Below, one piece after another: positions 9,905-28,474 of a stretch of DNA of 64,000 nucleotides. Position 1 is the stretch's first letter. Every line of letters starts with the position of its first letter. Position numbers and translations under genes: made by a program. Source of the DNA: Actinopolyspora lacussalsi (lineage in GTDB: Bacteria > Actinomycetota > Actinomycetes > Mycobacteriales > Pseudonocardiaceae); contig JAURUC010000001.1 in NCBI GenBank assembly GCA_030803735.1, forward strand, positions 1,249,501-1,313,500, read 5' to 3'. Below the pieces are notes generated by a model. That model saw nothing but the letters and a program-made list of their open reading frames with translations, did not search any database and was not told the DNA's origin.

Positions 9905-10309
9905 TCAATTTCGGTATTCATCTGTGAGATACTTCAACGGTATGAGACGTCCCATCAAGTCGTCGATAAGACCATGCGCTTCATGACGCCGCAGCGGGCG
10001 CTGCCTGAGGTAGACATGCGGCAACAGATCCATCAAAGTCTGCACGTACACACCCTCGGTAATCTCAAAGATAACAAAGCATCTAAAACAGTCCCTGGGA
10101 TATCCTTCATGTATGGCAAACCTAGTGTAGATATTCAGTATGCTATTTCGATTTTCGTAGTACCAACACCTCTTCCTGACCCCGGACAACCCGTACTTTT
10201 CGATGTCGGAAAATATAACTTCCATATCCTCGACCGCAACAAAACGAATATTATTAGATCCTCGCAATCCACGAAAATTCCACCAGTACCGCTTCAACCT
10301 GGAATCCAT
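9905..10309 (-). CDS. Putative immunity protein, paralogue of the Rhs immunity gene at 17096-17500
   Basis: 134 residues from ATG 10309; an in-frame TTG lies three codons upstream. It aligns along its full length with the 17096-17500 protein: DMEVIFSDIEKYGLSG against NMEKIFSECEKYGISG, CFRCFVIFEITEGVYVQTLM against CFRCFVIFEVSEGEYIKTLM, and RPLRRHEAHGLIDDL against KSLRRHEVHGLLEHV. The paralogue directly follows an Rhs toxin, so this one is read as an orphan immunity protein for a related toxin. No toxin precedes it here. It is AT-rich compared with the chromosome. Confidence 0.7.
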   Translation of the reverse strand: MDSRLKRYWWNFRGLRGSNNIRFVAVEDMEVIFSDIEKYGLSGVRKRCWYYENRNSILNIYTRFAIHEGYPRDCFRCFVIFEITEGVYVQTLMDLLPHVYLRQRPLRRHEAHGLIDDLMGRLIPLKYLTDEYRN

Positions 10310-10545
10310 ATCAATCAACCACCCGGAATTATCGCACTATTGATCATCGCAACTGTGTTTACTGTGGTGTTCTCCGCAGCGAGAATTATGCCACAAAGCG
10401 TTGTTTCTTGGCTAGAGGCAGGAGACTTTGACAAGATATCGCTACTCGCGACTGTGATTGGACGGTGCCGACGGTTCGGACTACCTACGCGCACTGCCGT
10501 GAGCAACCGACCTCGCAGCGAAACCAGCAGGCCACTGACCCAATA

Positions 10546-10947
10546 TCACTCGCTCCGCCAGAAACTGGAGCGCCACCAGTATAGACGCGTACTATCCTCC
10601 GGCCATTCATCCTGCGTGTCATCCGAGGAGTCGAAGTTGTCGACCTCCGGATCAATAGGACGAAACCCCGATCCTTTCGAGGGTCCCTTCTTCGCGAACC
10701 ACTTGGAGAGACGCGAGCGTCCGGCATGAATATCCGTGCGGTACTCACTCTGCGCCTCGACAAGCGATTCACTGTTCGCTCCGCCGCTGTACCACGGCCA
10801 ACGGAGTTGGACCGGGTCGTCCTCCCAGGAGCATATCTGGCAGATGTCGTACGATCCCGGAGGGGAATCATGCACCAGGTAACCGCAGCAGGGACAGGGA
10901 TAGGCTCCCTCCCTGTACCTTCCATTTGATCGAAGCGTTTCGGACAT
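10546..10947 (-). CDS. CPCC family cysteine-rich protein
   Basis: 133 residues from ATG 10947, with no clear ribosome site. The core YPCPCCGYLVHDSPPGSYDI followed by CQICSWEDD is the CPCC cysteine-rich domain, with two CxxC-type pairs that probably bind zinc. The later GANSESLVEAQ is also typical of that family. CPCC proteins are often encoded as immunity or accessory proteins in polymorphic-toxin loci, which fits the position. The IS256-type element begins about 20 bp upstream of this start, so the original promoter, ribosome site or first codons may have been lost. The 236-bp gap to the next gene (10310-10545) has no supportable gene. Confidence 0.75.
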   Translation of the reverse strand: MSETLRSNGRYREGAYPCPCCGYLVHDSPPGSYDICQICSWEDDPVQLRWPWYSGGANSESLVEAQSEYRTDIHAGRSRLSKWFAKKGPSKGSGFRPIDPEVDNFDSSDDTQDEWPEDSTRLYWWRSSFWRSE

Positions 10948-10966
10948 TCGAAACAACGACACAAGA

Positions 10967-12378
10967 GGGGTCTGTCAGAGGAACAGTGTAACTGCGGTGC
11001 GGGTGGTTACTGATCGTTGGTAGGGATGATACGGCCTTCGAAGGCGATGGCGAACGCGTTCAGTGCGGGTTTCCAGCGGATCATCCACTTGCGGCGGCCG
11101 GTGCCGGTGGGGTCCAGCGACCGGATCGCCAGATACAAACACTTCAACGCGGCTTGCTCGGTGGGAAAGTGCCCCCGGGCCTTGACCGCCCGGCGCAGCC
11201 GGGCGTTGAGGCTTTCGATGGCGTTGGTGCTGTAGAGCACCCGGCGGATCTCGGGACTGTAGTCCAGGAACTGCACGAACTCTGACCAGCTGTTTTCCCA
11301 CAGCCGGATGATGGCTGGATAGCGCTGGCCCCACTTGTCGGCGAACTCGGTCAGCCGGTCCTTGGCGGCGGCTTCGGTGGCCGCTGTGTAGACCGGCCGT
11401 AGGTCCTTGGCCATGGCGTCCCAGTACCGGCGGCTGGCCAGCCGGAAGGTGTTACGGATCAGGTGGATCACACAGGTCTGCACGATAGCCAGTGGCCAGG
11501 TTTGTTCGATGGCCTGCGGCAGACCTTTGAGCCCGTCGCAGACGACGAAGCACACGTCTTCCACACCGCGGTTTTTGATCTCGGTGAGTACCTGCAGCCA
11601 GAACTTCGCGCCTTCACCACCAGCACCGATCCACAGCCCGAGGATGTCGCGTTCGCCGTCGACGGTGACTCCCACGGCGGTGTAGACGGGCCGGTTGGTG
11701 ACCTGCCCATCGCGGACCTTGACGACGAGGGCGTCGATGAAGACCACCGGGTAGATACGGTCAAGTGGCCGGTCCTGCCAAGCCGCCATCTCCTCGACGA
11801 CCCGGTCGGTGATCTTTGAGACCGTGTCTTTGGAGACCTCGGTGCCATAGACCTCGGCCAGGTGTGCGGAGATCTCGCCGGTCGTGAGTCCCTTGGCGGC
11901 CAGCGACAGCACCATCTCGTCAACCCCGTGCAGCTGGCGTTGGCGCTTGCGCACGGTCTTCGGTGCGAACGAGCCGTCCCGGTCGCGGGGCACGTCGAGC
12001 TCGACGGGGCCGACCTCGGTGGTCCCCGTCTTCGAACGAGTGCCATTGCGGGAGTTCTCACCGTTGCGGCCGGTCATCTCATGCTTGTCGTAGCCCAGAT
12101 GCTCGATCATCTCGACCTCGAGGCCGGCCTCCAGGACCTGTTTGGTCAGCTGCTGCAACAAGAGCCATCCGGGCCGACCAGGTCCACGCCGTCGTCAGCG
12201 GCCCGCTGGGCCAGCTGGCGCACCAACCCCGGATCCACAGACGCCGACGCGTCCGCCGGCTGCTTCGGCTCCTGCGACTGCTCTTCGGTTGTACTCATCT
12301 GCGGTCCCTTCCTGACCCAGCCCCAGCGGGGCCAAGCCTTCCAGGCACCGCAGTTACACCGTTAGGTCGACACTCCCC
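10967..12378. mobile_element. IS256-family insertion sequence
   Basis: The element is about 1.4 kb. A perfect 15-bp inverted repeat, GTGTAACTGCGGTGC, occurs at 10986-11000 and as its complement at 12345-12359, with weaker matches further out. The hexamer ACAAGA flanks both sides (10961-10966 and 12379-12384) as a possible partial target duplication, although 8-9 bp is usual for this family. The right end abuts another element at 12383. Confidence 0.75.
11007..12298 (-). pseudogene. IS256-family (mutator) transposase, frameshifted
   Basis: From 12161 down to 11007 an uninterrupted 384-codon frame encodes a mutator-type DDE transposase: LEVEMIEHLGYDKHE near the start, VVFIDALVVKVRDGQV with the first Asp, VCFVVCDGLKGLPQAIE with the second, and STNAIESLNARLRRAVKARG with the Glu. 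The true N-terminus (MSTTEEQ, ATG 12298, preceded by GGAAGGG) is in another frame that stops just past the junction at about 12160. One base is missing, or two extra are present, in the stretch encoding the expected GPDG-LLQQL. The copy is likely inactive unless frameshifting occurs. Confidence 0.8.
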
Positions 12379-12382
12379 ACAA

Positions 12383-13274
12383 GAACCCTGAAGGTTATGC
12401 ACTGAACTGTTTACCAGGACTCTTGAAGTCGTCGGAGTCCTGTGATGATGTGGAGTACTCGTTGAAGATGAACGAGTGAGCGGCGGTATCGGTTGGCGAG
12501 GATGGTCCAGTTTTTCAGGTGGGCGATGGCGCGTTCGATCGGATAGCGTAGGAACGCTATTGTCGTGTTGGATTTTTCTCTGTCGGGGTCGAGTGTTCCG
12601 TTTTTCGGTTTTTTGGTGGGTTGGGTGATGGCGCTGCCCAGGTAGCCGAGATCGCCGATGGTGTTGGCATGGTTCAGCGTCTCGTGCAGTGACGAGTTCC
12701 GGAATACCGTGAGGTCATGGGTGGCGCCGGGAAAGATCTCCGAACACGTGAGAAGGTTCCCGTGGAGATCGGTGGTCAGCTGCAGGCGCACGCCGCAGCG
12801 TCGGTGTTTTCCCGAGTACAGTCTCTCCTGGTCACGACGGTTTCCTGTGGGGATGAGTACACCGTCGACGAGGGTGACTCGTCCGTGGAACTCCTCCAGT
12901 GGGGCGTGCATCTCGTCCAGGAGCTCGGCCAGGACGGGCTCGAACCGACGCAACACCCGCGAGATCGTCGACTGACTCGTGTTCCGGAACGCCGCCAGTT
13001 GTTTCTGGGTCAGATTTCCTCCGGTAGGACTCCAGTGTCACCACCAGAGCCATGAACACCGACAACGTGTTCCTCGGGTCCCACCGAATCACCTCACTGA
13101 TCCGCTCAGTCAACCAGCACAGCTGGTCCTCACTCAGCCCTGTGGTATCCGCGTAACGCAACGGTCTTTCCTTGGCATACTGCTTGTTCTTGGTCGAAAA
13201 GCATGATACCGGAAAGGCCGTTGCTTTTTATTTCCGTCCTCGTCTTCAACTCACCTGCATAACCTTCAACGTTC
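12383..13274. mobile_element. IS5-like insertion sequence
   Basis: The element is about 892 bp. The ends carry a 19-bp inverted repeat with 17 matches: GAACCCTGAAGGTTATGCA at 12383-12401 and, on the other strand, GAACGTTGAAGGTTATGCA at 13256-13274. The size and single small DDE transposase fit the IS5/IS1031-type groups. Its left end touches the right end of the IS256-type element, so one element inserted beside the other. Confidence 0.7.
12411..13161 (-). pseudogene. IS5-like DDE transposase, split by a frameshift
   Basis: The upstream part (13161 to about 13018, TTG start) encodes the helix-turn-helix half: LSEDQLCWLTERISEVIRWD, TLSVFMALVVTLESYRR. The rest (about 13018 to 12411) encodes the DDE half: LTQKQLAAFRNTSQSTISRV, then VTLVDGVLIPTG, GATHDLTVFR and AIAHLKNW. 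A one-base shift at GGAGGAAATCTG (near 13018) separates the two. Some IS5 relatives use -1 frameshifting, but no strong slippery heptamer is present, so a broken gene is more likely. Confidence 0.75.
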
Positions 13275-13362
13275 AGAGAAAAACAAGAAGCAACGGCCAT
13301 CCCTGGCTCTATGGAGCCCGACCAAAAATCCACACAACCACAGAAAAGCCGTTGCTTTTGCG
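13213..13362. repeat. Cluster of GCCGTTGCTTTT repeats
   Basis: GCCGTTGCTTTT occurs at about 13217-13228 and again at about 13348-13359, and its complement (AAGCAACGGC) at about 13288-13298. A further partial copy, GCAACGG, lies at about 13157. The set spans the end of the IS5-like element and the 150 bp outside it, and may be remnants of older insertion ends. No gene is supportable between 13275 and 13420. Confidence 0.45.
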
Positions 13363-13420
13363 TTACCACCGATAAAAACGTTCTATCTGCACAACTTTCG
13401 CTTTTGAATCCACCTCGTCG

Positions 13421-13864
13421 TTAACACGATTCATGGCTTTTTACAAAAATCCTCAAATCTTCTTTTTTCGTTTTCCATTCAGAAATTATTTCGCCTTCTT
13501 CGGTGGTGCTGCTATACTCCAAAAATTCTCCAGGTTTGCACGGGTTGAAAACATACTCTAGATTGTGAATAACAAACATTTGCTCTTGAATTATCACATT
13601 CTCGCAAAAATCGTAAAGAGCGTACCCCTGAAGAAAATTGGCACTTTCCGGAGGGGAAAATTTAGTGATCAATACTGCCACATCAGTATCCCCTCTGATG
13701 AGGCGCATTATCTCCCTAATCCAACTCTCTTCATAATCGCTTTTTGACCACCAACTTGTTTCACTTCGGAAATACTCATCCAAATCACCGGCCACTATGC
13801 GCCCCTTATAAACAGACTCCCCGAAAAAATCGTCTTTTTCGTTAGTAAGCTCGATATTAAACAT
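13421..13864 (-). CDS. CdiI-like immunity protein paired with the orphan Rhs toxin tip
   Basis: 147 residues. ATG 13864 follows GGGAAGTG, which lies in the last codons of the toxin frame, and the two frames nearly touch (toxin stop at 13866). Features such as DYEESWIREIMRLIRGDTDV, AVLITKFSPPESANF and GEIISEWKT resemble the immunity proteins of contact-dependent inhibition systems whose toxin is the Ntox21/NC101-type nuclease. The predicted role is to bind and block the toxin encoded just upstream. It is AT-rich and acidic, as is usual for immunity proteins of basic nucleases. The family assignment is from memory and not confirmed. Confidence 0.65.
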   Translation of the reverse strand: MFNIELTNEKDDFFGESVYKGRIVAGDLDEYFRSETSWWSKSDYEESWIREIMRLIRGDTDVAVLITKFSPPESANFLQGYALYDFCENVIIQEQMFVIHNLEYVFNPCKPGEFLEYSSTTEEGEIISEWKTKKEDLRIFVKSHESC

Positions 13865-13865
13865 A

Positions 13866-15794
13866 TCACTTCCCAATGTAGTTCATATCAGAATCGAAAG
13901 TTCCCAGCCGTTTGCCGCTTTTCGAGAACTTTTTCCGACCGTTGGTGACTTTGTGACCAGTTGTATCAGGAGTAATGTAAGCTTTTTGTTTTTTGCTCCA
14001 AAATCCGGGCTCTCCCATCGATTCAAAAGGAAGCTGGTTCGCGGGAACTCTTTGTTCGTAACCTAGATTAGCAGCACGCCCCTGGAGCCACTTACCTTTG
14101 GAAACCCCTTCAGGAACCTGAATTCCTTGATTTTTCTGACTACCGCCCTTTGAATTGCACCCCTTGTTGTGGACGAGGAGGTCGGTGTTTCCTGCGTTTA
14201 CATGGTAGGTGTGGATGCCGGCGATGGACAGGTTGTGCACCCGCTGGGTCTGGGTCCACTGGCGGGTGTCGGTGACCTCGACCAGCTCACCGTAGGGGGT
14301 GCGGAGCTCGTCACCTGTGTCGAGTTTCTCGGCGTCGACCCAGCGGCCCTGGTCGTCGCCCCAGAACGGGTGCTCGTCGGTGGCGATGACCACACCGGTC
14401 TCGTCCCCGGAGTTGCCGTCGGTGTCGACGGTGACCTCGACCAGATCCTTCTCACCCTGCCCGGTGATCGTGGCCACCACCCGCTTGGGCTCGGTCTCAC
14501 CGGTCACCGGATCGGTGGCCATCACCCGATCCCCGACATCGACCTCCTCGATCGGCTCATGCGACCCATCAGCCATCAACACCGCCGTGCCCGGTACGAA
14601 ACTGTTTCCCGGCACGCACCCGGACCCGGCCTTACGCCGCACCGGCGCGGCACGCGACGACTTCCACAAACCACTCGCCGCGTCCCAGCCATGCTTGCCG
14701 TACTTGGCAGCCATCGCCGCCTGCCCCGCACCAGGCACCATCGCCGCACACGAAAACGCGGCATCCACCGCCTTACCCTCGGCGGAATACCACGCACAAT
14801 TGGCGCCGTCGGCGACATTACCGACCACCGGAATCATCCCGGCACCGTCCAACAACCCGTGACCGACCTTCTTCAACGTCGGCAACCACGAATTGTTCTC
14901 CTCAGGCTTCCCCTTCGACGCGACCTTCCCCTTCACCCGAACCCTGGAAACACCACCAGAGCTACTCTGGGAACCACCGCCGCCAACGTAACGCTGATCC
15001 GAACCCTGACCAGCATAATTCGTCACGTGACTCACGACGGCGATGGCAGTTGTGACCATACCAATCGGATCGAATGGAGGCGGCATAAGGAAAAGCTTGC
15101 CGCTGGGATCGGAATAGGTGAGCGGGCTGTTGTTGCCGTAGGTGTAGCCGTGCATCTGCTGCGGATCCGTCAGATCCATCACCGGATCCACCGACAGGAA
15201 CCGCCCGATGCTCGGATCGTACTGCCGCGCACCCAGCGTGGTCAGCCCGACCGAGGAATCGATCGTGCCACCGACGAAACCCTTCTCACCCGGAAAATCA
15301 GCCGGATCACCACGCGACCCACCGAACGGCAAAAACCGCCGCCTCGTGGTCTCCAACGACCCGGCATCCACCGCCAACTTCGAAGTGCCCTGGTGATCCG
15401 ACGCCAACCAGGTCAACCCCGCACCGGACTCACGCACCGCCACAGTCCTGCCACCATGCGTGTAATACCGAGTCCCCGACAGCTCCCCGGACTCCGCATC
15501 CCACCGCAGCTGCTGACCGTCCAGGTACAACGTGGTCCCCGACGGAGACCGACGCAACAACCGCTTCCCATCCGCATCGTAGACGAACTCGGTGCTCTCG
15601 CCGTCCGGTGTGGAAACCCTGGTCAGATTCCCCCGAGCACTCCACTCCAGCGACTGATCACTCCCCGAAACCTTCCGAGAAGTCATGTTGCCGGCGGCGT
15701 CATAACCGAACTCACCACTCTTCGCCCCACCAGTGGACACCGAATTCAACGCATGACCCTGCGAACACCGCGAACCGGTAGTCCACCACGCCAA
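13866..15794 (-). pseudogene. Orphan Rhs tip: Rhs core, HINT pretoxin domain and Ntox21-like toxin
   Basis: An open frame of 642 codons without its own promoter, signal or N-terminal body. It begins in a scrambled junction (TTGSRCSQ joined to GHALNSV) and continues with an Rhs core nearly identical to the full gene (15104-15762), ending in GRFLSVDPVMDLTDP and YTYGNNSPLTYSDP. A pretoxin membrane-like segment (GMIPVVGNVADGANCAWYSA) comes next. A HINT autoprocessing domain starts at Cys in GCVPGNSFVPGTAVL and ends at LLVHNKGCN. The last 100 residues, with LPFESMGEPGFW, YITPDTTGHKVTNGRKKF and GTFDSDMNYIGK, resemble Ntox21-type tRNase toxins. It is silent as it stands but in frame with the full Rhs gene for recombination. 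Confidence 0.8.
15104..15762 (-). repeat. 659-bp Rhs-core direct repeat, copy 1 (orphan tip)
   Basis: Nearly identical to 18347-19005 at a constant offset of 3,243 bp, which is divisible by three. At least one substitution was noticed (CCGGCATCC against CCAGCATCC). The repeat covers the last YD repeats and the Rhs hallmark up to the DP-S/T-G boundary, exactly where Rhs tips diverge. It provides homology for tip exchange. Confidence 0.9.
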
Positions 15795-15843
15795 AGACTC
15801 TCGACAAAAAGCCTCACAACCACTCGTCGGCTCCGCGCTCTCA

Positions 15844-15884
15844 CAGCGCGAAGCCGACGAGACAGGCCAGCACCATCACCCCAC
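15844..15884. repeat. 41-bp exact repeat shared with 9663-9703
   Basis: This is the start of the small membrane protein gene (minus-strand frame MVLACLVGFAL, then stop), truncated here by the junction with the orphan Rhs fragment. The interval 15795-15982 otherwise contains no intact gene. Confidence 0.8.
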
Positions 15885-15982
15885 CATCATGGAAACCACC
15901 TCACCCACCAACCAAACTCAACCATCCCCACCATCAAACATGCCCCAGCACACCGTACCCGCACCAGATCCCGACACTCCCA

Positions 15983-16522
15983 CTACAGATTGGCATCCTC
16001 AGAAACCTGATGAACCGCTCTGATAAACTTATCAGACTTCACTGTCATATTATCTATGACACGATTTCCCTGTATTACAATTATGCCCTCTGGGTCAACG
16101 CTGTATTTTGGATCAGGAAAATTAAACCCCGCAACAACTTGCTTCTGGTAATTTGTATTTTTCTTTCCCCATGTGTGAAATTCCCAATATAGATTAGGAT
16201 TCCGCTCGATCATCACATCACCCAGGAACAAGCCCATGTCCAGCGCTACGGAGTACCATTCCGGAAGCAATCGGCCGGGAGAATCGGGGTCTTCCGAGAC
16301 ATGAGCAAGAAAGAAATCATTCAACCGCTGCACACCGGCATCATCGGACGACAGCTCAACACCATGCCACGCGAGAAACTCTCGCAACACCTTCAACCGT
16401 TCCGGCTTCTCGCTCATGATTTTTTTATACAGCCACCGCACATCACGCCGAGAAAGATCCCGAGGAGGACCTAAAACTTCCGGATCAAAAATACTGTAGC
16501 ATCTCCAATCAATAACATTCAT
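15983..16522 (-). CDS. Orphan immunity-like protein
   Basis: 179 residues from ATG 16522, with GGAG seven bases upstream; the frame can be extended to 16579 without a ribosome site. Recognisable blocks are NVIDWRCYSIFDPEVLGPP, QRLNDFFLAHVSEDPDSPG, WYSVALDMGLFLGDVMIERN and YWEFHTWGKK. This resembles an actinobacterial protein of unknown function commonly found beside Rhs toxins. No toxin directly precedes it, so an orphan immunity role is inferred from position. A decayed paralogue sits at 9772-9870. Confidence 0.65.
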   Translation of the reverse strand: MNVIDWRCYSIFDPEVLGPPRDLSRRDVRWLYKKIMSEKPERLKVLREFLAWHGVELSSDDAGVQRLNDFFLAHVSEDPDSPGRLLPEWYSVALDMGLFLGDVMIERNPNLYWEFHTWGKKNTNYQKQVVAGFNFPDPKYSVDPEGIIVIQGNRVIDNMTVKSDKFIRAVHQVSEDANL

Positions 16523-16936
16523 TCGTAACTCCACGGCGTGTCGGTTTCGTCTAACTTGACAAATAACGACTCTCTTCATCCTATTTTACAGACGCTCATG
16601 GAGACATCGGTCGCCATGTACCGTCCCGGTAGAATCCACACCGAAATGTCAAGTTAGCGGATTCTGACCTGGTGACGTATCAGGCATCTTTTCGCCACCT
16701 CACAACAGCACTCGAAAGTATAGGAAAACACACTGGATCGAGCCTCAGCCACCGAGACAAGGCAGGTTTCACGCTGCCGCTATGTCCCCCAGATGAACGG
16801 CCCCACCAAATCATAGTCTGGACTGGAAATACCCACTACAGCACAGCCAGATCACAATCACCTCCGTCACTATCGAGGAGCTCTCCAGAACGGAACGTCA
16901 TATCTCTCGCAGCGTCTATGTAGATAGGCATGTGTA

Positions 16937-16989
16937 GCGGCCCTCGCCTGATCCTCCATAACTTAATACAAGGATCAGCCAAGGGCCGC
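16937..16989. repeat. Long imperfect hairpin in an otherwise empty gap
   Basis: Two 19-base arms (16937-16955, GCGGCCCTCGCCTGATCCT; and 16971-16989) pair at 17 of 19 positions around a 15-base AT-rich loop. It lies 107 bp beyond the stop of the immunity gene at 17096 (minus strand). It could be a terminator without a clear U-tract, or the remnant ends of a mobile element. The rest of 16523-17095 has no gene I can support. Confidence 0.55.
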
Positions 16990-17095
16990 AGATAAACAAT
17001 CAACCAACAGCGGCAACAACATGAGTAGCAGATATACTACTCTTCAAAATTTATCGCCACCATAATAGAAATACACCTCCTCGATTTTTTGGGTA

Positions 17096-17500
17096 TCAAA
17101 ATTCCTGACTCCCCGAAAGGAGATCGAACGGCACAGCAAAATCTATCACATGTTCAAGGAGCCCATGAACCTCATGTCGGCGCAACGATTTCTGCTTAAA
17201 ATACCTATACGGCAAAAGATCCATCAACGTTTTGATGTATTCACCCTCCGACACTTCAAAAATTACGAAACACCTAAAACACGAAACCGGATGCCTCTCA
17301 TGCTTAGCAAACTTAATGTAAATATTCGATACGTTATTCTTGTTTTTTTTGTACCAATTTATTTTTTGATGCCCGGATATACCGTACTTTTCACATTCAG
17401 AGAAAATCTTTTCCATGTTCTCTATGTTGACATAACGAAAAACAGAAGAAGAGAGAAACCAACGAACTTTCCACCAGAAAACCTTTGACATATGTACCAT
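17096..17500 (-). CDS. Cognate immunity protein of the large Rhs toxin
   Basis: 134 residues. The ATG at 17500 lies four bases after the toxin stop (17505-17507), and its ribosome site (AAGGGGGA) is inside the toxin's last codons. This tight coupling is typical of toxin-immunity pairs. The sequence is AT-rich and Lys-rich with the core CFRCFVIFEVSEGEYIKTLM and SLRRHEVHGLLEHV, which is shared with the paralogue at 9905-10309. I do not recognise a named immunity family. The role is inferred from position and duplication. Confidence 0.75.
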   Translation of the reverse strand: MVHMSKVFWWKVRWFLSSSVFRYVNIENMEKIFSECEKYGISGHQKINWYKKNKNNVSNIYIKFAKHERHPVSCFRCFVIFEVSEGEYIKTLMDLLPYRYFKQKSLRRHEVHGLLEHVIDFAVPFDLLSGSQEF

Positions 17501-17504
17501 AAAA

Positions 17505-20500
17505 TCAATCCCCCTTGAAGTTTATCAACGGTATGGGGGTATCATAGCTGATGCTCGAGTTGGAGTCCTCGGCGCGCCTGATGAGCTCTTTCGCTCGATG
17601 ATTCCCGTTCAGAAGAGTTTTACCATCCGTGGTAACCCCAGGCTGTTCTCCCATCCCGCCTCGCGGTTTTCTGACAGCACGTAGAAGCTCTTCATCAGAG
17701 TAGTTCCCATATATCTCTTGCTCTCTTTTGAGATCATTCCCTTGCTTTAGGTTTTTTAGATCCCCTACCGCAGCATTATTATTAAGATAGCCACGACCGT
17801 TTTCGTTTTTCTTTTTGTTCTTTTTCGGTGATTTTTTCGTTGTGTTTTTGAGGCCTTTGGCGATGTCGTCGGAGGCGCGCATCCCCGTCTTAGCCGCTAT
17901 AACACCTACCCCTATCCCCAGCCCGATACCAGGTATCATGGCCCCACATGACAGGAGTGCGTCGGTGGTTTTGCCCTCTGCCCCGTACCAGATACAGTTC
18001 GCGCCGTCGGCAATGTTGCCGATTACCGGAATCAATCCCCCGTATTCCAGAGCACGGTGGGTCTGAGCTTTGAGTTCCTCGATCGAAATCGACGGCTTGG
18101 GGCCTGAGGGGAGTTTGGCGTTGTACGGGACAGGTCCCTGGTGTGTCTCGGACGGCGACGGGGAGGGATCAGGACGATTCGCGCCCCACGTATCCACCCG
18201 CGGCCGTGATGAGCCAGCTCCCGATGATGTCTGTGAACCCGAGCTCGGCCGGTGGGTTTTCCCGTTGTTACTGGTTGAGTTACCGGGGAACGGAGCAAGT
18301 ATGAGCTGGCCTTCCTCATCGGTGCCGATGACCGGTTGCAGCCCGGTGGGATCGGAATAGGTGAGCGGGCTGTTGTTGCCGTAGGTGTAGCCGTGCATCT
18401 GCTGCGGATCCGTCAGATCCATCACCGGATCCACCGACAGGAACCGCCCGATGCTCGGATCGTACTGCCGCGCACCCAGCGTGGTCAGCCCGACCGAGGA
18501 ATCGATCGTGCCACCGACGAAACCCTTCTCACCCGGAAAATCAGCCGGATCACCACGCGACCCACCGAACGGCAAAAACCGCCGCCTCGTGGTCTCCAAC
18601 GACCCAGCATCCACCGCCAACTTCGAAGTGCCCTGGTGATCCGACGCCAACCAGGTCAACCCCGCACCGGACTCACGCACCGCCACAGTCCTGCCACCAT
18701 GCGTGTAATACCGAGTCCCCGACAGCTCCCCGGACTCCGCATCCCACCGCAGCTGCTGACCGTCCAGGTACAACGTGGTCCCCGACGGAGACCGACGCAA
18801 CAACCGCTTCCCATCCGCATCGTAGACGAACTCGGTGCTCTCGCCGTCCGGTGTGGAAACCCTGGTCAGATTCCCCCGAGCACTCCACTCCAGCGACTGA
18901 TCACTCCCCGAAACCTTCCGAGAAGTCATGTTGCCGGCGGCGTCATAACCGAACTCACCACTCTTCGCCCCACCAGTGGACACCGAATTCAACGCATGAC
19001 CCTGCTCCTCGTACGAGTACTCGCGAACCGAGTCACCACCCGCGGAATGCCGCGTCTCCGTCAGACGATTACCGACCTCGTCATAGGTGTAGGAACGCCA
19101 GTACGGTGCCGCACCACCCAGATCCTCGGTCGCAGGATCCTGCGAGCACTGCGAACCCGTGGTCCACGCCTCGGTCAACCTACGCAGGTAGTCGTACCGG
19201 AAGCACTGCACATCAGGGGCACCACTGCGCGGCTGATCAGCGATCGAGGTGATGTTGCCCGCCGGATCGTAAGAGTAGGCCAAATCGGCCTGCATCGGTT
19301 CCGACACCTCGGCGTCCACGATCGTGCGCTCGGTGCGCCTGGTGTGTTCGTCGTAGTAGTACGACTGCCACACCCGATTGCCGATCTCGCCCATCTGCAC
19401 GCGGGCGAGCTCACCGTAGGAGGTGTACCGAGTATCGGAAACGTACTTGATCTCCTTGTTGGGTGAACCCCACGTAGTGGCCGGGTTCCCCAGGGAATCG
19501 TACGAATGTCCGATCGACTCCTTGTCCAGACCTCCGATCGAAGGAAATATCTTGTTCGCCAGCGAACCGTCTTCCTCGAATTCATACTTGGTCGTGTATG
19601 TCCCGGATAGTTTTCCTTCCGAGTCGGGAACCGTGACATTGATTCGTGTCGGTTTTTCCTGCGCGTTGTAAGCAACGATACGTCGCTTGTACGCGTTGCC
19701 GTCGATCCATCGAGTGGACGATGCCAGTTTGCCACTCCCGTAAAGAGCGGAATCGTAGTCCCACTCGGCAATCCTCTGCCCGTTCAGGGAGCCGGTATGA
19801 GTGGCCGTCTTACGTCCCAGCTCATCGTAAGAATAGGCGAGCGTCTTACCTCTCGCGTCCGTCTGGGACACCATCTGTCCCGCGGCGTCGTAGGAGTAGC
19901 TCGTGGTCCCGCGGTCGGGATCCTCGGCCTTGACCTTGCGCCCCCTCAGGTCGAAGGTGTAGCGCCACGTGTTTCCACCCGGATCGGTGACCGTTTCGAG
20001 CTGTCCCGCGTCCGTGTAGGTGTAGCTCGTCGAGTCGTATTCCCCGGTGGTAGTGGAATTCTTGTACTGCCGGAGCTCGACCTTGCGACCACGGGCATCG
20101 TTGATCGTGGTGGTGGGAACACCGCCATCCGGCGGTGTCACGTGAGTGCGGTCTCCGCCATAGCCGTACTCCGTGCGCCACTTCTCGACGCCACCAGCCA
20201 TGAAAATCTCGGCTACCTGACGTCCGGCCCCGTCGTACTCGATGCGGCTCATCGCGGGAACTTCACCCGCGCTGCTCGCCCGCCACAACTTCTTGTCCAC
20301 CGGGTTGTCGTTGAAGTACGGACGAGTGGCACGGTAGACGCGACCGTGCGAGTCGTAATGCTTCTCGGTAATAAGCCTGCCGCCACCGGAAGCCGGGCGC
20401 TGGATCTGCCGTGGACGCAACAACCCGTCGAGCAGCTTGTTGTAGCTGACGTAGTCACCGTCCGAATTCAACGTGCTGGTGGTGACCACCACCGGTTCTT

Positions 20501-23224
20501 CCTTGGCGATCCGGTACGAGTATTTCTGACTGGGGCTCTCGCTTTCGCCGCGATCACGGTTGGGCAGCCACACGTTGGTCCTACGACCCAACGCGTCGTA
20601 AGTGATCTCGGTGATTCGACCGTCCGGGCCGACTTCCTTGACCGGTGCTCCCAACAATGGGTGCAAGGTCGTAGTGGCCGTGTGTCCGGCCGGGTTTGTC
20701 ACAGAGGTTTCGGTCACCGGACCACCCAGCTTCGGGGTGTAACTGGTGGTCGTTTCGCGGCCCAGTGCATCCGTCGTGGTGAGCACACGTCCGTGTGCGT
20801 CAAAGGTCTTGGTCGCGACCGTGGTGTATTCGGGGGAACCGTTGTTGTACCGCTCCAGTTCCTCGACCTCGGTGACATTACCCGAGGTGGGCGCGTCACC
20901 GAAGTTTCCGCCGTCATAGCTGGTGCGGGTGTCCGACACCGCGTCCTGCGGCATCGAAGGCGTCTTCCCGCAGGCCACCGAGTTCGTCCACTTACGTTTC
21001 GGCAGGTTGAGCAACCAGCTGTCAGTGTTGCGCGCGTAGCTGGTGCGCTTGCACAGGTCGTCCTCCGGTTTGTCGACGTTGCCGAGATCGTTGACCCGCG
21101 TGACCAGCCCCTGCTTGTTGTAGCTGGTCTCGGTACGCGTGACACGCCTACCGCCACTGCTCAGCGGCGTGTACGTCGTCTCGGTCCCGGAATTGACCAT
21201 GTAGGATTCGAGGTCACCGTTCTTGGCGGTCGGTCCCTGCCACGTCGGTTCGGTGACGGTCTTGTTGACCACTGGTCCGCCCTCACCGTTGTAGGTGATC
21301 GTTTCGAAGGCGAAACCACGCAACCACTCATGGTCGGTGTAGCTGTTTCCTTCCGAATCGGTGACCCGGACACTACGCTCGCCGTTATTCGGCAACGCAT
21401 CGCCGTCCATCCCCTGGAAGAATCGCTTCTCGGTAAGCGTCACTGGTCCGTCATTGCCGCTACCGGTACGGATCCGGACCCGGCCGAAACCGCGGAACTC
21501 GTTCCAATTCCGGTCCTCTTCGGATGTCACCTCCGAACTGCTGTGTGCCCAGGCAGCACCACCCAGGTACTCGTACTTGGTGATGGAGCCCGTCGTGCTG
21601 CCGATGCGATCGTGCTCGGTGATCGATTCGACCACGTACTTGTGGAAGTAGTCGGTTCGCTCAGAGACATAAGGTGCGGACCAGGTGACCGGAAAACAAC
21701 GCAATGTGTTCGTCTCCGGCTTCTCCGGCATGTTCACGCCGGTCTCGCAATCCGGCTCGGCGTACTTGACCGAGAGCACCCCACCTGCTTCGGAGACGAT
21801 CGCGCTGATTCGATACCTGATCAGCGCGGCGTGACCGTCCTCGGCGTAAACCCGGTTGGGCTTCGGCACACCTTCGAACTCCACCTCCGGCAGGGCAGCG
21901 GAACCACCGACATGGCCGGTGTGCGTAATGCCGTCCAACCACAGCGCGGGTTGTTCACCATCGCCCGGATCGGGGAATTCGTGACGCAGACTCCATGAGT
22001 CCACAGCTGTGAAGCCGGAGTCGCCACGCACCTGTGTAGTGATCTTGGAAAGCCGCTTGGTGGACCAGAACGTCGGAGCGTTCTGCGTATCATCGCAGTT
22101 ACCGGTGCATTCCAAACGCCACGGAACGTCCGGCCAGTTCTCCTCGTGCTCACGATCGCATGTCGAACCGGGAACACAACGGTCGGCGACATCGAACAGG
22201 ATCCGCGCGGACGGCTGCTGTACGTGTTTCTCGTGAATACCGTACTCGATCTTCTTCAGCCAACCGTCCCGAACGTACTCCACGGACTCGCTGTTGTTGT
22301 TCAGCCCGTAATGATTGGTCGCGGTCTCGTAAGAGTAGTGGATCACGTTGCCGTTCGGATCCACCACTTTGTCCAGATTCCAACGGTATCCCTGCTTGCA
22401 GGAGGACTCCGCGAAGCTCGGACCGTGGCAGGGCTCGCCCGCGTCGTTCCCGAACACCGGCGCGGTCCAGGTCGACTTCGAATCGGGACGCGAACCGTAG
22501 AAGTACTGGGTACCGTCGACCTCGGTGACCTTCCAGTACTCCCCGTTGTTGTCGCTGTTGTTCGCACCGGTCAGCCGCTCTACACGCGACCCGTCATCAC
22601 TTTTCGGCCGCCACTCACCCGTTTCATCGTCCTTGATGAGTTTTGAGCCCGATCCTCCGAGGGACAGCGTGGCGTTGTCACTCTTCCAGCAGAAGTCACC
22701 GGGTTTGTCGTTTGAACCGTTGTCCAAGTCACTTACGCACGAGGCGTAACTTCGTTCGATGTAGCCCGGCCACAGGCTCCATCCGTCACCGATCCAGGAT
22801 GCCTGAGTGTTGGTCGCGCTGGTCAGTCCGTCCAGCGACCCCGAAGAATAGGACAACGCCAGCTCTGGTTTGAGCCCACCGGGAACGTCAGGAGCTTCGA
22901 TGGGATAGTTCCAGGTGAAGTTGCCGGTGTGGCCCGAGACGTCCCATGTGGCCGAGGGTTTGAGTGAGGTAGCGGTGTACTTCCCCGCTCCTTTCTCCTG
23001 GCCTCCCGAACCACCGGCCGGTTGGTCCCCCTGCAGAGCGTCTTTCGATGCCTCGTCCTCGGGGCGATCGCCATGTTCTGTTGGTCGACCTGAACCGAGG
23101 GCGTATCGGGCAACGGTTCAGAAGGGCCGTCGGCGGCACTGGCCTGTTGCGGTACTCCGACGGCTGCCAGCAGACCGGCCAGAAAGACCGGGGTCATTAT
23201 CATGGCAACGTGTTTTCGGAACAC
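17505..23224 (-). CDS. Secreted Rhs/YD-repeat polymorphic toxin (frameshifted near 23061)
   Basis: About 1,900 residues once a frameshift is corrected. The N-terminus (GTG 23224) gives a signal peptide: FRKHVAMIMTPVFLAGLLAA then VGVPQQASA. After QQNMAIAP the frame breaks at a GGGG run (plus strand 23061-23064); one extra base would read on as EDEASKDALQGDQPAGG into the 1,783-codon body. The body has a beta-rich N-terminal part, many YD repeats and the Rhs hallmark (GRFLSVDP, YTYGNNSPLTYSDP) at about 18350-18470. A hydrophobic pretoxin segment (GLIPVIGNIADGANCIWYGA) follows. The 90-residue tip has DGKTLLNGNHRAKELIRRA, reminiscent of ParB/sulfiredoxin-fold nucleases (weak). Immunity follows at 17500. 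Confidence 0.8.
18347..19005 (-). repeat. 659-bp Rhs-core direct repeat, copy 2 (full-length Rhs)
   Basis: Partner of 15104-15762 in the same orientation and frame. A crossover between the copies would delete 3,243 bp (the present tip, its immunity gene and the orphan gene at 15983) and fuse the HINT-Ntox21-like tip to the full Rhs body. Confidence 0.9.
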
Positions 23225-23337
23225 GGCTAATCCATCTCTCTTATCACGTGGTCGTGACGTCGATAAACGCACACTTTCCTCCCGGTGGGACGCGCGTTGT
23301 AACTCGAAAATTCAGGGCTGTATGAGTTTTCCTCGAT

Positions 23338-26300
23338 TCAGGAATTTCCGTAGGACGCGTAGAGCGATTCGATGCGGTCAGTGCTCAGCATGCCGGTGTA
23401 GAGTCGAACATCGTCGACCGATCCCGGCCAGAACTCGGTTTGAGCTCCGGCGTCCTTACCTCGTCCGATCTGCAGCCCACCGTCGCTCTGCCAGGTGTTG
23501 TGCAACGTTCCGTCATTGATACGACTGCCGTTGACGTACAGCCAGAGTTTGCCGGTAGTCGCATCGTAGACCCCGGTCAAGTGTGTCCAGCTGTTGATCT
23601 CGGCATCCAGCGTGGCTACAGCCGTCTCGGTAACCGGTGCTGACTCCGTATCCGATTCCGGCATCTCGAAGATCCAGGCACCCAACGGATGCTCGATGTC
23701 CGCAACGTGCCCCAACCGGAACTTGCTGGTCTGCTGCCCGTCGACGCTGACGGCGGTAACCTGTTCATCGTCCTTGCTGGACAGATACACCCATGCCGAG
23801 ACGGTGAAGCTCTCGTCGGTGCGCAGGTCCACGCCGGAGGTGGAGACGTAGTCGTCGGTGCCGTCCATGCTCACCGCGTTGCCCGAACGTCCGGAGGTGA
23901 ACGAGGCGTCGCCGTGCAGCGTCCCCGGCTGGTTGCCGACCGAGTCCGCGGCGTTGGTGCCTTCCGACTCGTTCAGCCGCAGGTTGTGCACCAGGTTCAG
24001 ATCACGTCCGGCCAGCAGCCGGATCTCCTCGGCGTAGAGCACCCTGCTGTAGGTGCGCACGTCGTCGATCGCGCCCGGCCAGAAATCGACCGACTCTCCG
24101 TTCCACTGTCCCCGCCCGATACCGAGGACACCGGTGGCGTTCCAGGTACTGGTGTGTGCCGCCGATCCCACCAGGGAACCGTTGACGTAGAGCCTGATCT
24201 CGCCAGTCGTGGCGTCGTACACGGCGGTCAGGTGGGTCCAGAGCCCCAGCTGGGCGGTTTCGGCCGAGATCAGCCGCGTGGGAGTGCCACCACCGTCGAC
24301 ATCCGAGCCGAACATGGAAAAGCCCCACTTGCCCTGCGGATTGACCTGCAGGTGGAAACCGCTCGTGCGGTCGCCGTCCTGCGAGAGCACCTCGTACCAG
24401 TCGCCGGTGTGGTCCAGTTTGGCCCAGGTCGAGACCGTGAAGCTCTGACTGGTGTCCACCGCGTTGGGGGTTTCGACGTAGTCGTCGGTGCCGTCGAGTT
24501 GGATCGCCTCGTCCCCGGGGTTGGGGTGGACTGTCTGGCCGCCCTGCCAACCGGGATCGCCGTGCACGGTGCCGTCCAGGCCGCGCCCGGAGTCGTCGGT
24601 GACGTCGCCGTCGAGCTTCCAGGAGCCGGAGCTGACGTTGTCCTGGCTGACGATGCCGCGGATCTCGTCGGGAGTGAGCGCACGGCTGTAGGTGCGCAGT
24701 TCGTCCACCGCGCCCGGCAGATAACCGCCCCACGAACCCGCGCTTCTGGCCCGGCCGACCTCGAACTGTCCGGCTTCCGGATGCCAGGCACCCTTGAACT
24801 GGGCCTTACCGGCGAGCTCACCGTTGACGAACAGCCGCAGCTGCCCGGCTCGCACGTCGTGGACACCGACCAGGTGGGTCCACACCCCGGTCCGCGGTGT
24901 TCTCGTCGAGGAGACGGTGGCGGTCTCCGGATCGGTGGCCTGCTCGGAGCCGCGCAACGTCCAGGTCCAGGAGTCCTGCCCACTGCCGGAGTAGCCCAGT
25001 TCGAAGGAGGCGTGCTGCTGCCCGTTCTGACTGGTCACGGTGACCGGCTCGGTGGTCTTCTCGTCCAGCCGGACCCAAGTGGCGACCGAGTAGGAGCCGT
25101 CGCTGCGCACCGAGGGCTCGGCGGTGGTGACGTGGTCGTCGGTGCCGTCCAGCCGCAGCGCGGAGCCCAACGCCCCTTCGGTGTAGCCCGGATCACCGTG
25201 CAACGTGGCGGGCTGACCACCGGGAACGATGTTGGGCACGGAACCGGCCTCACCGGTTTGCTCGAACTTCCAGTGCCCGGTGCGCACGTTGTCCAGATTC
25301 ACCAGCGAGCTGATCTCCGACTCGGCCAGCACCCGGTCGTAGGCACGCACCTCGTCGACGTCGCCCGCCCAGGGGTCGGTCGGGTTGCCGTTCCACTTGG
25401 ACCGGCCGATCGCGGTCGAACCACTGGTGGAGATGTCACCCCAGTAGGGTTCGGTGGCCGCCAGCGAACCGTTCACGTACAGCCGGATCTCCTCGGCCGA
25501 GGGTTCGTAGACACCCGCGATGTGGGTCCACTGCCCGGTCTTGGCGTCGACCTCGGAGGTCGCGAATGCCTTGTACGTACCGCCGTCGGTCTCGTCAGAA
25601 CCGCTGAGCACGAAGTGCCACTTGCCGTCCGCGCGGGTCTGCAGCATGAAACCGCTGACCACCTCACCGTCCTGCGACACCGCTGTGCGGCTCATGTCGC
25701 CGACCTCGTCGGCGCGCACCCAGGCCGAAACGGAGAAACCGGCGTCGGTGGGAACGGAATTCGGAGCTGTCAGATAGTCGGTGCTGCCGTCCAGGTGCAC
25801 CGCCGAGTCCACGGCACCGGGCGTCCAGGAGACCCCGTTGTGCGTGCTGCCGTCCCGGTCGCCGAGGAAGGCCGCGTCGGTGACGTCACCGTTGAGCGGC
25901 CAGTGCGCCACGGGGCCGTTGCCCGCTCGGACGTAGAAGTGGTGGGTGGTAACCGGGCTGCGGTTGCCCGCACGGTCCACGCTCTGCACGTACAGGTCCA
26001 CCGGCCCGTCCGTGGGAGGGGTGAGTGTGACCGTGGCGCTGCCGCCCAGCGAGTCCGGCGCCACCGTCTTGCTCGGCGGATCCTGGAATCCGTAGACGTA
26101 GTGGTCCACATCGCCGACCCCGGCGGCGTCGAAGGTGAATTCGGCGGGAACGTCCCTGCCGCCGTGCCAGTTGTTGTCGGCCGGATACACCGATGAGGAC
26201 ACGCCCGGAGCGCTGTCGGGAGCCACCCGGTCCACCACGAAGCTCGGACCGTTGGCGGTGGCGCCGTCCAGGGCACCGTCGTTGCCCCGCACGCTCCAGG

Positions 26301-28057
26301 ACACGGTTTTGCCGTGCAGTCCGCGCAGGTCCAACGGTGTGCTGAAGACGGAGTCACTGGCCAACCACTGTTCGCGGGTTTTGCTGCCGTCCGCCTGGAT
26401 GTCCCAGATCGCCCGGACCTGACCGCCGTCCGGATCGGTCAGTCTGGTTTTCAGCCGTGCCTCGTCACCACCGAGGTAGGTGGTGCCATCGCACAACTGA
26501 CACGGATCACTCCAGGGCTCCACCCACGTGTCGTGCGGCGGATCCGGCAGGCGGTTGTACTCGATGAACACCTTGGGGTACAGCCGGACCCCGTCCTGAG
26601 TCTTGACGTGGAAGCGTTTCCACGCGGCCGGATCGTTGGACGACTCGTCGGCGGCGGTGGCCTTCAGTCCCATCGTGACGTCGTTCCACCGCTCGTCGGC
26701 GGCCTGCTGCACCGCGCTGTGCGCGTTCATCCCCACCCAAGCGGGGCCACAGCTCTGCCCCGCTTTCGGTACCGTGCTCTTCGAGGCGAGCCTGCGTCCC
26801 CAGCCCGGCTGGTTGTTCCAGGTGGTACCCGGACCGATGGGGCCGGTCATCCACAACTCGACCGGCGGCACCTGGGCGGGATCACAGCTGTTCGAGTACT
26901 TCCAGGACTGATAGATCTGGAACTGGGCCTTGCTGATGCGAGCGCCTTTGATAGCTCTGGTGTCGAACCGGAACAGCGAACGATCCATGTAGGACGAACC
27001 CCAACCCGGTGCGTGACCGACACGCGCCACACCGGCGTATCGCTCGTCCTCGTCCCGTGGCGCGAGGTTCCAGTTGGCCTGGTTCGGGTGGGAGCGTCGC
27101 ACCAGGGTCCACGCCGATTCCTCGGGAGTGACGTAGCTGAAGGCCGGGTCGATGACGACGGGGTAATTCGTGTCCGTCGCGTCCAGCATTCCCTGATCCG
27201 GAACGAGGCTCACCTCGCCCGAACCGAGTTCCATTCCCACTCGCGACTGCTTGCGGGGGGGACCGCTGCTCCTTCGCGGTGGCGGAACTCGTGGAGCGCT
27301 TCGCGACGCCCGCGGTAGCGGACTCCCACATCATCGGGGTGGCCGTGGTGAGCACCGTGTCGCCGTTCCCGTCGACCGCCCGCACGTTGCCGGACTCGCC
27401 GGTCTCGACGGTGACGCCCTCGCCGCGCATGTCGAAACCGATCCGGTCCAATCGCGGATCCGCCGCGGCCTCACGCGTTTTGACCACGAGTTCGTGGGTA
27501 ATGCCTCGCGGCGTGGCACGAACCCGCAGGTCCACGCCCGAATACACCTCGGGATAGGTGGCGGTGCTTCCGGAGATCTCCGGTGTGGGCAGCTCGCCCT
27601 GCCAGTCCAGTTCCAGGGCCTTGTCCGCCGTGTCACCGACTCCCCCGAGCCGCACCAGCGGGCCGTCGCCACCCCCGGAGAACCGGACCTCGGCCGGTAC
27701 CGCGGTGGGGGCCACGGTGCCGTCGTTCCTCCGGACCAGTGTGGTGTCCAGGTCCGTCCACTCGCCGTCCCTGCGGACGCGTTGGGGCACCGTGGACTGT
27801 TCCATGGTGAACGAACCACCGGGGTTGGCGAACACCTGTGTGGTGGACGTGGTCAGACCGCTCACTTCGACCCGGGAATCCTGTCGGGCGGCGGCTCGCG
27901 ACGCGGCCGCCTCGGTCGCCGCGGCCTCGACCGGCTCGGCCGTGGCGGCGCGGGCGGTGGCGCCGACCGATTGGCTCAACGGAGACCCCAGTACCGCGAA
28001 CACCAGGAGAGTTACCCCCAGTGATCTGAACAGGCGTCCCTTGTGGGACGTGCGCAC
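23338..28057 (-). CDS. Secreted LamG-repeat protein of the Rhs locus (frameshifted at 27255-27261)
   Basis: About 1,570 residues after correction. GTG 28057 has GGAGGT six bases upstream. A signal peptide follows (RTSHKGRLFRSLGVTLLVFA, then VLGSPLSQSVGA). The first 270 codons form a beta-rich domain (FANPGGSFTMEQSTVPQRVR, YPEVYSGVDLRVRATPRG) and then hit a run of seven G on the plus strand. With six G the frame would join RSP to RKQSRVGMELGSGEVSLV. The remainder holds a DNRLRE-like domain (SYMDRSLFRFDTRAIKGARI), an Ig-like region and four LamG/concanavalin-like repeats, each with a WTHL or WTHI and LYVNGSL pattern. It sits 114 bp upstream of the Rhs gene and is probably co-transcribed. Such LamG proteins commonly accompany actinobacterial Rhs toxins as surface partners. 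Confidence 0.8.
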
Positions 28058-28474
28058 TCGATTACCTCCAACGTGCTGCTCCGCCTCGCCGGCGGCGGGC
28101 GGTTCAGGACAAACCAGCACAAAGCATCGAGGCGAACAGGAATGCGAACAATGCTCACTTTGCGCACGTGGGATTGGGACGTTCGGAAGAGCGAAAGCGA
28201 GCGATCGGCCGCTTTACAGGAGATCCATCTCACGAAGTCACCGCTTCGTGATCATGTGAAAATCCTTCCGTTACCGCCGAGACCAACGAGAGCGCGGCGT
28301 CGAGGTGGTCCGAAGTACGACCCCGGGAGACGGACAGTTCGCGGTTTCGCGCACTCCGGCATCGGATGGAACAACACGAGGTGTAATCACGATGTGAAGC
28401 GTGCCGAGAAAGCGAAGTTGTCAGCGGGCCGGCGCGCTCTGCGAGGCACGGCACCGCACGTAGGCTTGTTCGGC
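28058..28474. other. Intergenic region without a supportable gene
   Basis: A 417-bp gap between two divergently transcribed genes, which should carry both promoters. A small hairpin, CACGAAG-TCACCG-CTTCGTG, lies at 28231-28250. No convincing coding frame was seen. Confidence 0.5.

Follow-up and report, generated by a model that had tools for sequence, protein, structure and literature searches.

The Rhs locus of the salt-loving actinomycete Actinopolyspora lacussalsi described here lies in a 64,000-nucleotide stretch of DNA (the window), and all of its features are on the minus strand. The main gene (17505..22856) encodes an Rhs body, an Rhs core and a first C-terminal tip, together 1,783 aa when counted from the first standard start codon of the frame. 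It matches RHS_repeat, YD_repeat_2x, SpvB and Rhs_assc_core, the composition of a long YD/RHS-repeat protein with an Rhs core. A signal-peptide segment is present, but it is encoded by an ORF (22823..23272, GTG at 23224) that is out of frame with the body ORF in this assembly. A preliminary description of the locus had read one expressed and secreted gene up to 23224. The stretch is not one open frame, and the terms expressed and secreted are unsupported as stated, given the displaced signal peptide. The database protein for the main gene (1,843 aa) also starts behind the signal peptide. In Actinopolyspora erythraea (G003), the equivalent stretch including the signal peptide is a single open frame of 1,940 aa, and an intact version of the gene is present in a relative.

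The main gene ends in tip 1, a predicted ParB-like domain of putative toxin function (17505..17858). Directly behind it is imm1 (17096..17500), the putative tip 1 immunity gene, which has paralogs and no Pfam match. When relatives of tip 1 were sought among length-limited candidates in a large protein set, only its own protein was returned. Elsewhere in the family, domains like the tip 1 toxin occur within open reading frames that span 7,102 to 20,151 aa (L154, L155, L157 and L159). Next comes a gene of a hypothetical-protein family (15983..16579), with a PF19794 match in two of 38 relatives and a broken homolog in A. erythraea.

A second tip follows in a cassette that lacks a body. Its ORF (13866..15794, 642 aa) is free of internal stops and contains the end of a core, a linker, a PT-HINT domain (14166..14576; E 4.7e-20) and an Ntox21-like toxin domain (13872..14018). 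The toxin match in Pfam is below the cut-off (E 4.8e-4), and the match to chain 4ntq_A has an E value of 1.8e-18. The adjacent imm2 (13421..13864) is a CdiI-type immunity gene (CdiI_N, E 2.2e-19; 4ntq_B, E 6.9e-12). Silent toxin and immunity protein thus match both chains of one solved complex, 4NTQ, and stand side by side as homologs of the Ntox21/CdiA-CT ECL pair. Anatomically, the cassette is a headless tip downstream of the main gene that retains core homology and is accompanied by an immunity gene of its own. The ECL residues D203, D205, H207 and K214 correspond to D, T, H and K in the 4ntq_A alignment, so that the full set of four is not retained. However, the position of D205 is Asp in two and Thr in one of three other Ntox21-labelled tips, which indicates that this Asp is not invariant across the family and makes the Thr a caution only. 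The idea that the silent toxin is dead for want of a catalytic residue was rejected on the same ground. The Thr at one of the four listed positions, even as a caution, leaves the earlier label "ready-to-use" unsupported as stated.

The two tips are joined to the same core sequence. Pairwise comparison of the main-gene copy (18347..19005) with the silent-cassette copy (15104..15762) finds one mismatch in 659 bp (658 of 659 bases identical), and the flanking base differs at both ends. The copies have the same orientation, an offset of 3,243 bp and a common minus-strand reading frame, which bears out the near-identical in-frame repeat of the preliminary description. They are the sole two matches at E <= 0.001 in a search of the 5,028,440-base single-contig genome, and chance is therefore excluded. 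The script used for relatives reports the window's own core match as 663 bases at 99.7%. A looser resemblance extends beyond the repeat: the 11 codons AWWTTGSRCSQ before the silent copy resemble AWTTGSQCSQ of the main gene, where nearly 50 codons, missing from the silent copy, separate this motif from the repeat. DPxG-type motifs mark the tip junctions (DPTGL and DPSGK). The geometry of the proposed rearrangement holds as well, in that a single crossover would take out tip 1 together with imm1 and the 15983 gene, and would join HINT-Ntox21 to the body.

Programmed, reversible phase variation by a dedicated recombinase acting at the repeat has nothing in its favour except how long and how nearly identical the copies are. 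Direct copies would yield a deletion rather than a reversible flip, no inverted repeats of at least 40 bp (14-bp seed) were found in 10000-27000, and the only recombinase-type matches among ten scanned ORFs of the neighbourhood are IS transposases. Such a system is extremely improbable here.

Whether the cassette is silent at all bears on a different alternative, in which an internal promoter drives it as a stand-alone toxin-antitoxin pair, the repeat being incidental. The database gene model of the cassette (P0006, 624 aa) begins inside the core, and internal expression has been reported for main and orphan rhs tips of Salmonella (PMC7043789). Against this, a stable, terminator-like hairpin of 17 pairs (15823..15861) lies just before the cassette. 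The hairpin is absent from the terminator-scan list and is identified by its folding z-score (-4.7 for a 106-nt stretch). Promoter and terminator scans found sites no more numerous than in shuffles, and the promoter scan, which covers some promoter types and not others, gave four sites where 4.6 are expected. We regard independent expression as very unlikely.

Comparison within the genus addresses the history of the tips. Among ten Actinopolyspora genomes, own genome (G000) included, the body query has matches of at least 69% identity in four (own, G003, G002 and G006), the remaining matches being short and 30-49% identical. The A. erythraea body is 94% identical, and its gene ends in a different tip, with Colicin_D (1.7e-18) and Colicin_immun (4.2e-8) matches; its linker is 65% identical to tip 1 over 197 aa. 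This variable tip on a conserved body indicates, at the level of sequence comparison, that this body has exchanged its tip in the past. In Actinopolyspora biskrensis (G002) and Actinopolyspora mortivallis (G006), the linker and HINT match the silent ones at 72% and 71% identity, and the two species have a third toxin end in common, with related immunity genes. Tips on this body family are thus exchanged between species. Compared with the A. erythraea protein, about 422 (G002) and 1,123 (G006) residues are missing from the N-terminus, and G004 retains a core fragment. As candidates for the predicted fusion, with the same tip on an intact body, the G002 and G006 genes were rejected, since they are headless and carry a different toxin end. 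The predicted fusion product was not found, and this Ntox21 domain occurs in none of the other nine genus genomes. Across the family, the Ntox21 domain occurs in four of 390 genomes, own included, and is broken by stops in two of the other three.

The genome of the same species (G005) was considered as a closer test and set aside: it has no repeat match and, at the syntenic site, nothing resembling the body gene, so that neither tip is shown. At that site (L145), where the Rhs body is absent, small immunity-like genes form an island: DUF4265 and CPCC genes and a homolog of the immunity gene of G002 and G006, together with another LamG protein.

Divergence from A. erythraea gives a scale for the age of the repeat. 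Between G000 and G003, 91 of 659 sites differ in the repeat and 266 of 3,834 in the rest of the compared body, with synonymous distances of 0.44 and 0.26, respectively. The copies differ from each other by one base, far less than this divergence from G003, which implies that they were duplicated or homogenised recently. An imported tract with a boundary at 19005 is not claimed, as the best divergence change point is near 21.19 kb and there is no step at the repeat edge. The silent linker and HINT have dN/dS values of 0.35 to G002 and 0.29 to G006, not above the 0.39 between these two relatives, and thus display no visible decay.

The surroundings of the cassette contain further immunity-like genes. 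Downstream of it come, in order, an IS5-like transposase fragment (12411..12956) and an IS256-type transposase (11007..12161), both identified by domain scan, an orphan CPCC-family gene of putative immunity function (10546..10962; PF14206, E 5.7e-23) and an orphan imm1 paralog (9905..10318; 51% identity over 124 aa). The paralog is outside the interval that a crossover would delete. Homologs of the CPCC gene, the imm1 paralog or both are at the same site in G001, G003, G005 and G007, and none is found in the examined stretch of G009. In G001, G005 and G007, the Rhs body match is absent at the site of the orphan immunity genes. Pairwise dN/dS is 0.14-0.25 for the CPCC gene (ten pairs from five genomes) and 0.21-0.31 for the imm1 paralog (three pairs from three genomes); values of 0.14-0.31 indicate that both genes have been kept. 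In L138, too, there is a CPCC relative about 1.3 kb past the core. Upstream of the Rhs gene, the LamG gene (23338-28120) occupies two frames, one of them a LamG-repeat protein (23338..27240) split from its N-terminal part, where G003 has one frame of 1,593 aa.

These features invite a reading as a decaying locus. On this view the main gene is a pseudogene and the LamG gene is broken, and the cassette is left over from a recent duplication next to insertion sequences, persisting by chance or solely because of its immunity gene. Two adjacent genes, Rhs and LamG, are out of frame compared with G003, IS256 and IS5-like transposases lie downstream, the homologs in G002, G006 and G004 are headless or fragmentary, and stops interrupt two of the three other Ntox21 copies in the family. 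However, both long ORFs are otherwise open, and the dN/dS of the silent linker and HINT does not exceed that between relatives. Moreover, the frame breaks may be sequencing errors; single-base gaps relative to G005 in the common flanks are few (none in 3,614 bases and one in 4,036), which neither proves nor excludes such errors. Decay is an unlikely account of the locus as a whole, though one that retains some weight.

To see how common the arrangement is, the best 80 of 139 confirmed core relatives in the genome collection examined can be considered. A second same-strand core lies downstream in six of the 80 (L072, L084, L099, L109, L115 and L119; 69-80% DNA identity), a count that may be too low, as at least 8.9 kb of downstream sequence is available for 63 of them. 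Only L084 has its second core as near as a cassette would be (2 kb), over 203 bases at 76%; this partial core copy in Streptomonospora nanhaiensis (11713-11913) is a possible older orphan cassette. Upstream core copies occur in L071 and L074 and an opposite-strand copy in L083. The A. lacussalsi genome itself has a second polymorphic-toxin locus (L165, C1:2286000-2300000), in which a HINT-tipped main gene is followed by a headless HINT cassette. Main gene and cassette there have the same toxin end and immunity gene, with a 1,394-bp direct repeat at 96.4%. The locus also contains a CPCC gene, and a further small gene is present as tandem paralogs.

We conclude that the locus is probably an instance of the known Rhs orphan-cassette arrangement, in an actinomycete and inside an island of orphan immunity genes. 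The second tip and its immunity gene are best read as displaced and kept behind an Rhs gene that has exchanged its C-terminal tip, an account we favour over the others with some confidence. It is supported by the repeat and its common frame, by toxin ends that are unrelated to each other and both have a gene in the immunity position behind them, and by the different toxins on near-identical sibling bodies. The second locus of the same build in this genome and the orphan immunity genes kept at the site in siblings add to this support. It is weakened by the broken frames, the Thr residue, the absence of the fusion in the genus, the lack of a divergence step and the lack of the repeat in G005.

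Homologous recombination between the core copies could swap tips. The displaced tip has kept 219 core codons that nearly match those of the main gene. In the proposed mechanism, the repeat may have been made, or recently homogenised, by a crossover or by gene conversion within the core. Another crossover of RecA type would then remove 3,243 bp and place the HINT-Ntox21 tip on the body. Tip loading is probably rare because imm1 would be lost with the deletion, and until then the cassette may act as a store of immunity and could supply a new tip. The tip switch of the preliminary description thus stands in its anatomy, an in-frame repeat and a silent tip with its immunity gene, whereas neither a deletion junction nor switching was seen. 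A more ambitious proposal is that the switch is alive, with the 3,243-bp deletion occurring at low frequency and the imm1 paralog at 9905-10318 protecting switched cells from unswitched siblings. A crossover in the repeat would leave this paralog in place, and its cross-protection is hypothetical. If true, the proposal would answer the objection that the deletion costs the old immunity, but we consider it quite improbable.

The arrangement itself is already known from Salmonella. Salmonella Typhimurium LT2 has main and orphan rhs genes with 522 bp of homology at 95%, and Southern blot, qPCR and sequencing back their fusion by recombination, for which an earlier duplication of the locus was proposed as the route (PMC3967940). 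Recombination there loads the orphan tip, the type of event that a crossover between the copies described here would be. The expression of Salmonella main and orphan tips from within the genes has in turn been argued to prevent recombination in the wild type (PMC7043789). Like LT2, the A. lacussalsi locus has a main gene, a downstream orphan tip with its immunity gene and a long in-frame core homology. Unlike LT2, it belongs to an actinomycete, involves a signal-peptide Rhs protein and has a broken body frame in this assembly; a fusion has been seen in LT2 and none here.

Other known systems resemble the locus in part. Orphan cdiA-CT/cdiI and rhs-CT/rhsI modules of enterobacteria, for which loss of the main immunity gene is named as a cost, are likewise displaced modules behind a main gene, without start signals and with retained upstream homology of varying length; their carriers are mostly Gram-negative two-partner or T6SS-type, and their arrays reach up to eleven modules, compared with one here (PMC3150448). 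The silent toxin and its immunity protein are homologous to CdiA-CT/CdiI of Enterobacter cloacae, the pair in PDB 4NTQ (PMC9086364), although the carrier is an Rhs core with HINT instead of CdiA and the position of D205 is Thr. Polymorphic toxin cassettes have been described in general terms as replacing a tip in one recombination and leaving strings of old immunity genes, in a treatment whose available text does not mention Actinopolyspora (PMC3482391). Literature searches found nothing on Actinopolyspora with Rhs and, judged by titles on orphan Rhs toxin and immunity genes in Streptomyces, nothing on such an arrangement. The locus extends the orphan-tip arrangement, for which recombination has been demonstrated in Salmonella, to a Gram-positive actinomycete, whose repeat is both longer and closer than that of LT2 (659 bp at 99.8% versus 522 bp at 95%). 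Through it, the loading of a tip and the price of giving up an old immunity gene become testable in an environmental organism.
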